A stretch of 64,000 nucleotides of DNA from Dysgonomonas sp. PF1-14 (GTDB taxonomy: Bacteria > Bacteroidota > Bacteroidia > Bacteroidales > Dysgonomonadaceae): contig NZ_JARXWN010000007.1 in NCBI RefSeq assembly GCF_029892965.1, positions 124,001 through 188,000 on the forward strand, read 5' to 3'. A program made the translations under genes and the position numbers. Positions 5,769 to 27,401 of the stretch are shown piece by piece; the stretch's first letter is position 1; each line of letters starts with the position of its first letter. A model generated the notes under the pieces. It was given only the letters and a program-made list of their open reading frames with translations. It did not search any database and was not told the origin of the DNA.

Positions 5769-5992
5769 AAAATGGTCTTTGAAATAATAATGTAAAAACT
5801 GTAATCTTTGTCAGCTTTTAGTTAAAATGTAGTATACAGCCTTGTAGGGGGGACCCATGTGTTTGCCCGAAGATCGGATAAACGAGCAGGATGTGCGCAC
5901 CAGCGAGGTTTAGTTAAGAGATTTCTCACGCAAAGACGCAAAGGAATAACACTTGTAACTAGCGTTAGTTTTGTCAGTTTTTAGTTAAAATT
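5769..5992 (+). repeat. Dispersed modular repeat R1, copy a
   Basis: This fills most of the gap between ygbA and aroC. It holds GGTCTTTGAA, three TTTTAGTTAAAA-type separators (about 5815, 5909 and 5978), a central block beginning CAGCCTTGTAGGGG and reading through AGATCGGATAAACGAGCAGG, and a CTCACGCAAAGACGC block. The same blocks in the same order recur at 11611-11888 (minus) and 26843-27401. No open frame of note. Confidence 0.8.
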
Positions 5993-6026
5993 ATTTTCAA
6001 ATACTTGTTAGTACTTATAATCCTTG

Positions 6027-11447: not shown

Positions 11448-11610
11448 CTCCTCCTTTCTTTCGTAATCTTTGAGGGTCTAAAGCATTATAACATCTCGCT
11501 GGTGTTAAGATCTACTGTTCAAATATTAATCTATCTTTTTACTACACAGCACACAGACTGGAATTGGGGCGCATCCGCTCCTCGAACGTTATTTTTGCAT
11601 GGGTAAGAAG
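11448..11610. other. Intergenic stretch upstream of the zinc-ribbon gene
   Basis: Together with the adjoining R1 copy this makes a gap of almost 600 bp. I see no open frame, no exact TAnnTTTG box and no hairpin of note here. A GC-richer patch near 11565-11585 stands out from the AT-rich surround. Confidence 0.4.
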
Positions 11611-11888
11611 AAAAATTTTAACTAAAACCTGACAAAACTAACGCTAGTTACAAGTGTTATTCTTTTGCGCCTCCGCGTCTTTGCGTGAGAAATCTTTTAA
11701 CTAAATCTCGCTGGTGCGCACACCCTGCCCGTTTATCCGATCTTCGGACGAACACATGGATCCCGCCCTACAAGGCAGCACACTGCATTTTAACTAAAAC
11801 CTTACAAAGCTTACTCGAAAATATTAGTTTTTAATTACACGTGTTTCGATTCTAGAATCTTAATTCTTAAAAGAACGCTTTTCTATAT
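11611..11888 (-). repeat. Dispersed modular repeat R1, copy b (empty MITE site)
   Basis: On the minus strand this carries the R1 blocks in order: TCTATATAGAAAAGCGTTCT, then GAATTAAGATTCTAG, the TTTTAGTTAAAA separators, the GTAGGG...CCGAAGATCGGATAAACGGGC block, CTCACGCAAAGACGCGGAGG, and the closing separator. It matches copy c closely over about 260 bp. The difference is that copy c has a 182-bp insert at the TAA of GAATTAAGATTC, which is intact here (about 11859-11861). Confidence 0.82.
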
Positions 11889-11962
11889 AGATAAACTTTT
11901 CTATTTTTCATACTTCTGTATATATTATCTTTGACGACACAAAATAGAATGATTGTATAAAT

Positions 11963-26748: not shown

Positions 26749-26842
26749 ACTTTTTAATATGATATAGTGCCATCAAATGGAGTTTTTTATGGTTGCAGGA
26801 ACATCTATTGTCGTGGTAATTAAGAAGGGAGTGTGGAGTTGT

Positions 26843-27401
26843 CAAAATTTTATCTATATGGAAAAGCGTTCTTTGAAGAATTAAGAGCTTGTTTAAATTT
26901 TATTCGTTTAGGTTTTCAGCACTATTTTTGGAATGATTTTTTCTTATCTGAAGCGCGAATAGCGGGCTATTCAAGCTGAAGAAAGGGGAAAATCGGATAA
27001 AAAGAGACTGAAAATGAACGAAAAAAGAACGATAACAAAATGTTTTGGTAAAATTTAAACAGGCTCTAAGATTCTAGAATCCAAACATGTGTAATTAAAA
27101 ACTGATGTTTTTGAGTAAGCTTTGTAAGGTTTTAGTTAAAATGCAGTGTGCAGCCTTGTAGGGGCGAACCCATGTGTTCGCCCGAAGATCGGATAAACGG
27201 GCAGGATGTGCGCACCAGCGAGATTTAGTTAAAAGATTTCTCACGCAAAGACGCGGAGGCGCAAAGAAAATATATAGCTTTGTAGTAGGGGCAGTAGCTT
27301 GTCTATGCCCGTTTATTATCAGGGTGGGTACCCACAAGGGATGCTCCTACAGAAGAAAAGGTAATATATAACTTGGTATCTTTGTCAGGTTTTAGTTAAA
27401 A
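26843..27401 (+). repeat. Dispersed modular repeat R1, copy c (interrupted by a MITE)
   Basis: This fills most of the 822-bp gap before the flippase gene. Its left end (TCTATATGGAAAAGCGTTCT...GAATTAA) is separated from the rest by the MITE at 26885-27066. It then continues TAAGATTCTAGAATC, the separators, a block with the inverted repeat GGGCGAAC...GTTCGCCC, AGATCGGATAAACGGGCAGG and CTCACGCAAAGACGCGGAGG. An extra hairpin module GTAGGGGC...TATGCCCGTTTA follows, then GGTACCCACAAGGG, and the closing separator at 27387-27401. Copies a and b share most of it. Confidence 0.82.
26885..27066. mobile_element. 182-bp MITE-like element with TAA target duplication
   Basis: The ends are inverted repeats: GAGCTTGTTTAAATTTTA on the left and the complement of GAGCCTGTTTAAATTTTA on the right, 17 of 18 identical. 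It is flanked by TAA on both sides (26882-26884 and 27067-27069). R1 copy b shows the uninterrupted target, GAATTAAGATTC. There is no coding capacity; the interior has a hairpin GAATAGC/GCTATTC. A 3-bp target of TNA type fits mobilisation by an IS5-family transposase in trans (inference). Confidence 0.85.

Follow-up and report, generated by a model that had tools for sequence, protein, structure and literature searches.

A 182-bp element in the genome of Dysgonomonas sp. PF1-14 is a MITE, very probably mobilised by an IS5-family DDE transposase that acts on it in trans and duplicates TNA targets; it consists of a single hairpin whose fold has been kept while its sequence changed. It lies at 26885-27066 of the window, the 64,000-nucleotide stretch of contig C7 (positions 124,001 to 188,000) that was analysed. 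The whole element is one long hairpin, and its relatives have retained the shape while the letters changed. The insertion had been noticed in a sequence-only reading of the window; that observation is real and was correctly read, and the conservation of the fold beyond the genus, together with its strand polarity, adds to it.

The element and its insertion site

Rereading and recomputation of the sequence confirmed a copy of 182 bp, assigned to subfamily A, at 26885-27066, with its best-folding strand as the plus strand. No plausible gene is present, since the mechanically called ORFs touching it encode only 23, 24 and 48 amino acids, and the 48-aa ORF begins outside it. The terminal inverted repeats, GAGCTTGTTTAAATTTTA on the left (26885-26902, plus strand) and GAGCCTGTTTAAATTTTA on the right (27049-27066, minus strand), match at 17 of 18 positions, and the element is flanked on both sides by a TAA target site duplication (26882-26884 and 27067-27069), all as the sequence-only reading had described. 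Short length, absence of coding capacity, terminal inverted repeats and a target site duplication with a known empty site are the features of a MITE. The neighbouring genes are an AMP-binding enzyme gene on the left (minus strand, start 26710) and a plus-strand ORF on the right (start 27533), for which a Pfam search gave no match at E<=1e-3.

The element splits copy c of the repeat R1 (26844-27265, plus strand) into 26844-26884 and 27067-27265. The uninterrupted site claimed for copy b of this repeat (11611-11888, minus strand) was borne out, with a single intact TAA at 11860-11862 on the minus strand. The empty site reads ...AAGAATTAAGATTCTAGAATC... in the reverse complement of copy b, and the filled site in copy c reads ...GAAGAATTAA, followed by the element and then by TAAGATTCTAGAATC.... 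Aligned with copy b, the flanks of copy c are 93% (26844-26886) and 94% (27067-27265) identical. Insertion of a non-autonomous element into another repeat, as first proposed, is supported by the duplicated TAA, by further copies and by their TNA sites. Only two R1 copies cover the site, so copy number alone cannot decide between insertion and deletion, yet it is most improbable that R1 originally contained the segment and that copy b later lost it, because TAA is single in copy b and double in copy c and the element occurs at many other sites with TNA duplications; the target duplication alone answers against this account. The repeat itself is composite (window 11560-11900, 26840-27265 and 5801-5995), and its pieces recur genome-wide in 63 matches, mostly short fragments. 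Its parts include a self-complementary gggcgaac...gttcgccc stretch and a caaagacgcggaggcgcaaag stretch.

Copies in the genus and a candidate IS5-family partner

A search of the whole PF1-14 genome, as the sequence-only reading had suggested, yielded at least 40 dispersed matches at E<=1e-3 (40 candidates scored). The extracted set holds 41 full-length copies from this genome, comprising 22 of subfamily A, 17 of subfamily B and two others. Median pairwise identity is 0.978 within each subfamily, and 10 of the 231 pairs in subfamily A are identical, so that calling the transposition recent was fair for subfamily A. Matches were found in 13 of the 25 genomes of the genus, PF1-14 included, with at least 35 in G007 and at least 32 in G009 (33 candidates scored per genome). 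In addition, a pattern scan of named genomes gave 12 stretches; they belong to Dysgonomonas sp. 521, to Dysgonomonas sp. UBA7710 and to entries under the names Prevotella sp. or Bacteroidia bacterium, and the Prevotella-titled records with the element are L118, L122, L124 and L125.

From 86 end pairs, 75 copies were kept that measured 165-200 bp and matched the window copy over a sufficient length. Equal 3-bp flanks were present in 58 of them, 57 being TNA, against a mean of 28.9 and a maximum of 43 under shuffled pairing (TAA 30, TTA 24, TGA 2, TCA 1, CTA 1), and the remaining 17 had no matching 3-bp flank. Median identity between genomes was 0.71-0.84, yet the length stayed near 182 bp, with 71 of the 75 copies at 181-183 bp among rows pre-filtered to 165-200 bp. 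The tips of the MITEs are mostly GAGYC in G000 and G015, GTAAC or GAAAC in G007 and G009, and mixed in G012, and both ends of one copy mostly change tip together. Smaller elements of 67-106 bp with similar ends were also observed (L031 3568-3673, L035 562-643, L036 442-517 and L038 617-683), two of which (L031 and L036) have matching TAA or TTA flanks, and a 75-bp-period repeat within an ORF (L044 2169-2933) includes GAGCCTRTGTAAATTTTA, which resembles a MITE end.

The surroundings of the copies were also considered. Gene orientation, taken from crude codon-score gene calls, showed no clear pattern around the 41 PF1-14 copies (++14, --8, -+8, +-4, 7 undetermined on one side) or around 79 non-Dysgonomonas elements (++24, --22, -+12, +-20, one undetermined). 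No clean orthologous empty site was obtained with the PF1-14 copy L015 and its flanks; among the matches listed, the left gene was conserved and the right flank unmatched. Neither the window element nor one class-level element matched plasmid or phage records at E<=1e-5, and one G356 and one G317 element gave no match in plasmid records at the same threshold.

The partner of the MITE is likely an IS5-family element with the same ends. The search for it started from a transposase fragment near a MITE copy on contig C9 and led to same-end elements in related genomes. In a congener (G011), an IS of 875 bp (L066 891-1765) has GAGCCTGTTTAAATTT at both ends and is flanked by a TTA duplication, and its transposase is split over two overlapping frames of 180 and 90 aa, which score 130.7 bits (cut-off 110) and 54.8 bits against NCBIfam transpos_IS5_3 and match DUF4096 and DDE_Tnp_1 in Pfam. 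As a member of the IS5 family (transpos_IS5_3), it shares identical 16-bp ends and a TNA duplication with the MITE. Another IS, from a different genus of the same family (L131 112-968), has ends GAGTCTGTTTAAATTT, one 251-aa frame and the flanks TAA / TTA. Two more, L133 (G004) and L140, have GTAACTGTTTAAATTT at both ends, the flanks of L133 having only the letters TA in common, and a GTAACTGTTTAAATTT-type tip is also found on MITEs of G007 and G009. Ends identical to those of the MITE are thus present on IS5-family elements (L066 and L131), with the model match to IS5_3 for L066; among these partner elements, L066 alone has equal flanks. The IS tips GAGYC and GTAAC both occur in the genus, and no genome-by-genome pairing of MITE and IS of the same tip type was found there. 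These same-end elements support the IS5-like affinity and TNA target suggested earlier. The transposase would act on GAGYCTGTTTAAATTT-type (or GWAACTGTTTAAATTT-type) ends and duplicate its TNA target; we infer movement by this enzyme, of which only a fragment was found in the PF1-14 assembly.

The proposed search for a transposase gene between matching ends was therefore successful in related genomes, and PF1-14 itself contributed the fragment only; no autonomous partner was found in its draft assembly of 49 contigs. The absence of a transposase from the window holds for DDE_Tnp_1 and IS5_3, since no match to either in this genome falls in C7:124001-188000. In PF1-14, only the N-terminal fragment on C9 comes close to the transposase of L066, at 80% over 55 aa. 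It lies directly behind a MITE end (L040/L065) and is accompanied by a second, slightly different end, GAACCTGTTTAAAAATGG, forming a chimeric remnant. On C11 (L055 1435-1830), a DDE_Tnp_1 C-terminal remnant adjoins a MITE with TTA on both sides; apart from it, no such ends were found near the other IS5_3 and DDE_Tnp_1 matches of this genome. The IS5_3 copies on C16 and C5 (L144, L156 and L164) were rejected as partner because MITE-type ends are absent within the stretches examined. Given that the assembly has only the fragment and IS5_3 copies lacking such ends, the partner is lost, unassembled or elsewhere within the species. Derivation of the MITE from the IS by internal deletion was also rejected, since letters shared with the IS extend, by eye, over only 16 bp on one side and 21 bp on the opposite side. 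Unlike the MITE, the IS5 family encodes a transposase, and no hairpin match was found inside the IS: covariance model R1, run over 14 IS5-type loci, gave a sole match with E 0.36, located outside the IS.

Porphyromonas gingivalis, a species of the same order, offers a close comparison. Its MITEs with IS5-type ends, MITE464/PgRS and BrickBuilt, have been described together with the elements ISPg1, ISPg4 and ISPg9 (PMC4596501). Like the element described here, they are non-coding, have only terminal repeats in common with IS5-family elements and have ends beginning with GAG; moreover, long stem loops are predicted for BrickBuilt, for which SNPs potentially suggesting compensatory mutations are mentioned (PMC4596501). 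In contrast to the present element, their ends are GAGACTGTTGCA/GAGACC..., their stem loops arise from internal tandem repeats and their target duplications vary in length and sequence, and the available part of PMC4596501 gave no cross-species count of covarying pairs.

A strand-polar hairpin across genera

Folded at full length, the plus strand reaches -61.6 kcal/mol (z -8.6), where shuffled sequences average -31.4, and the minus strand reaches -42.3 kcal/mol (z -7.0). For 24 diverse Dysgonomonas copies, the consensus structure has 62 pairs, and across the copies 96.0% of the pairings are standard. Both sides had changed in 19 pairs, compared with 12.1 in shuffled alignments, none of 500 shuffles reaching 19, and the covariation score was 0.236 versus 0.138 for shuffles and at most 0.092 for slid controls. 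When 42 copies including other genera were aligned, 44 pairs had changed on both sides versus 34.8 shuffled, and covariation was 0.498 versus 0.199, in an alignment made to the covariance model and hence leaning towards the structure of the model.

The apical part of the hairpin (26949-26980, plus strand; columns 65-96 of alignment A1) consists of a short stem that ends in a CGGG tip loop (26963-26966, plus strand) and is surrounded by purine-purine internal loops, and exactly CGGG is the deepest hairpin loop in 113 of 153 elements. Both of the loops closest to the tip frequently read 5'-GA/5'-GA, that is, tandem G-A pairs; exceptions are most of G317 and, at the inner loop, subfamilies A and B, the window copy having GA/GA in the outer and GC/AA in the inner loop. 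Towards the 3' end, the stretch at 27022-27047 (plus strand, columns 138-163) is unpaired in the Dysgonomonas consensus fold and partly paired in single-copy folds. Among symmetric internal loops of the plus strand, purine-purine ones outnumber pyrimidine-pyrimidine ones in each of the 17 genomes examined, for instance 184:44 in G000, 169:13 in G356 and 121:5 in G355. The strand chosen by the covariance model as plus folds better in 78 of 79 non-Dysgonomonas elements, a result that is partly circular because the model search itself chose the strand and leans to the better-folding one; the tip sequence gives the same polarity as this choice. In one copy (L099 437-617, G015), the apical ~45 bp appeared by eye to run opposite to those of the other aligned copies, as though the arms had recombined. 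The conserved polar hairpin is well supported as a structure and unproven in function. No known Rfam RNA family was found for it at gathering score: the window contained two tRNAs only, the element region gave three matches at E<=5, all far below gathering score, and nine other loci gave one tRNA and no further family.

Covariance model R1 found matches in at least 11 of 295 genomes of the order, including PF1-14 and one congener. The nine further genomes, at E<=1e-3, had best matches of 38.8-105.4 bits each, and rescoring with 150 candidates each gave 34 matches in G356, 27 in G355, 18 in G317, 16 in G264, 10 in G237, 4 in G332, 2 in G249 (one place, both strands) and 1 each in G276 and G233. 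As a control, 22 loci chosen for reasons other than the MITE, 75 kb in total, gave a best score of 20.5 bits (E 0.067), whereas the rescored matches reached at least 38 bits. Equal 3-bp flanks were found in 50 of the 79 non-Dysgonomonas elements of the order, 47 of them TNA (shuffled 22.0, maximum 35). Two matches to the MITE model in G355 (L244, C34:200554-200917) are of unequal length and one base apart.

At class level, covariance model R2 found matches in at least 25 of 237 genomes, 23 of them outside the order; since only 9-11 candidates were scored per genome with either model, absence in these large scans means little. Eighteen class-level loci were inspected (L267-L284), nine of which have equal 3-bp flanks. 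A second structured MITE-like group with the same IS5-type ends was recognised among them by a RAGGC (5' arm) ... AACGAAG-like (3' arm) core in 14 of the 18 loci, a pattern that was chosen after looking and whose difference from the Dysgonomonas apical motif was judged by eye. Class-level matches scored on both strands in four genomes, and these may be plain palindromes.

RNA-level constraint and competing accounts of the fold

In Dysgonomonas, the observed preference for G-U over A-C changes favours an RNA-level constraint between lineages. Parsimony over pairs common to the folds of both strands counted 51 WC-to-GU against 18 WC-to-AC events (naive p 9e-5; events not fully independent, trees rough), divided into 35:14 on terminal and 16:4 on internal branches, along with 33 WC-to-WC events; in unpaired columns, neither C>T nor A>G was in excess per cell. 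These Fitch counts used 70 distinct rows, L099 with its inverted centre and identical rows being left out. A second way of choosing pairs gave 57:25 overall and 42:13 outside PF1-14; the ratio was 12:5 (p 0.14) within subfamily A of PF1-14 and 4:4 within G007. Pairs slid by -3, -2 and -1 gave WC-to-GT against WC-to-AC ratios of 25:7, 31:9 and 29:13, and those slid by +1, +2 and +3 gave 17:18, 11:17 and 10:7; sliding was judged unsuited as a control for G-U because it retains the per-column bias.

In the four genomes counted from other genera the G-U preference does not hold, so that the RNA reading fails to replicate there: G356 gave 31:22 (p 0.27), G317 10:24 (reversed, p 0.024), G237 5:9 and G355 2:2, and alignment folding gave 13:21 for G317, G237 and G355 together. 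The counts for other genera omit L208, L209, L214, L226, L246-L249, the 171-bp G355 elements and all of G264, G249, G276 and G332, and the G356 structure was taken from the consensus, as alignment folding of both strands gave 0 common pairs. The G-U data are accordingly read as a sign that source copies of at least one lineage are constrained, and not as proof of RNA function.

It is possible, and here tentatively proposed, that the fold would matter as RNA, with transcripts through the plus strand folding into a long double-stranded stem, as has been proposed for Correia/NEMIS. Such a stem would make insertions of active source copies tolerable or processable. Selection would bear chiefly on those copies from which new ones arise, rather than on every copy, since the copies of other genera diverge among themselves with no preference for G-U. 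A broader form of this proposal, equally tentative, takes the element as the vehicle of an order-wide, IS5-dependent and strand-specific hairpin that is selected as RNA in source copies and would bear double tandem G-A loops beneath a CGGG-capped stem, with the second same-end group, which has a different conserved core, playing a like part in other orders of the class.

Proposed precedents for RNA-active MITEs come from other phyla. Transcripts of Correia/NEMIS, ERIC/RU-1 and RUP are predicted to form long stem-loops, and cutting or binding of Correia/NEMIS RNA by RNase III has been proposed (PMC2229807, PMC2649163). These elements are similar to the one described here in their 100-200 bp length, terminal inverted repeats and TA-containing ends (PMC2229807, PMC2649163). 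They differ in their ends, whereas the present element has a 3-bp TNA duplication and probably an IS5_3 partner, and its covariation has been measured between genera; its likeness to an RNA-active MITE of the Correia/NEMIS type lies in the predicted fold. Searches of the open-licence literature turned up no Dysgonomonas MITE, no MITE hairpin whose covariation had been measured between species, and no account of this family, its likely partner or its strand polarity.

Somewhat unlikely, in our judgement, is a fold that arose as a by-product of DNA mechanics, in which a palindromic origin followed by template switching or arm-to-arm correction yields paired changes without selection. Paired changes are indeed common (the 33 WC-to-WC events), the inverted apical ~45 bp of L099 is what palindrome-mediated exchange would give, and the G-U preference is absent in G317, G237 and G355 and weak in G356. 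However, copying between arms should abolish internal loops, yet several genera have retained specific purine-purine loops and the CGGG tip on one strand; a strand-symmetric process should not yield strand polarity, and the 51:18 excess of G-U over A-C in Dysgonomonas, with unpaired columns free of a C>T or A>G excess, also argues against it.

Action of the hairpin as single-stranded DNA or as a one-strand cruciform, for transposition or for a host protein, appears improbable. Tandem G-A loops and strand polarity are also possible in DNA, and the near-fixed length of the element in Dysgonomonas is compatible with such a role. REP elements with RAYT partners are, as here, multi-copy strand-polar hairpins in intergenic DNA. 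However, REPs have neither long terminal inverted repeats nor a 3-bp target site duplication and their partner is a Y1 enzyme, whereas the ends and 3-bp TNA duplications of the present element are typical of a double-strand DDE mechanism. Still more doubtful is an ordinary dead-end MITE with random filler between IS5 ends and an apparent conservation due to recent common source copies: the MITEs of P. gingivalis do share only terminal repeats with their IS (PMC4596501), but here the length remains close to 182 bp even where the median identity of copies from different genomes is only 0.71-0.84, and covariation exceeds both shuffles and slid controls.

With a candidate partner transposase, defined ends and dozens of copies in some genomes, a single anecdotal insertion has become a testable system, in which the fold has outlived the sequence of the element across genera. 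If the proposal of RNA-level selection is true, mobility and RNA function would be coupled within one unit of ~150-200 bp. Should the fold be needed, small bacterial transposons would be selectable for RNA shape; should it not be needed, the element would provide a clean case of how palindromic elements stay palindromic.
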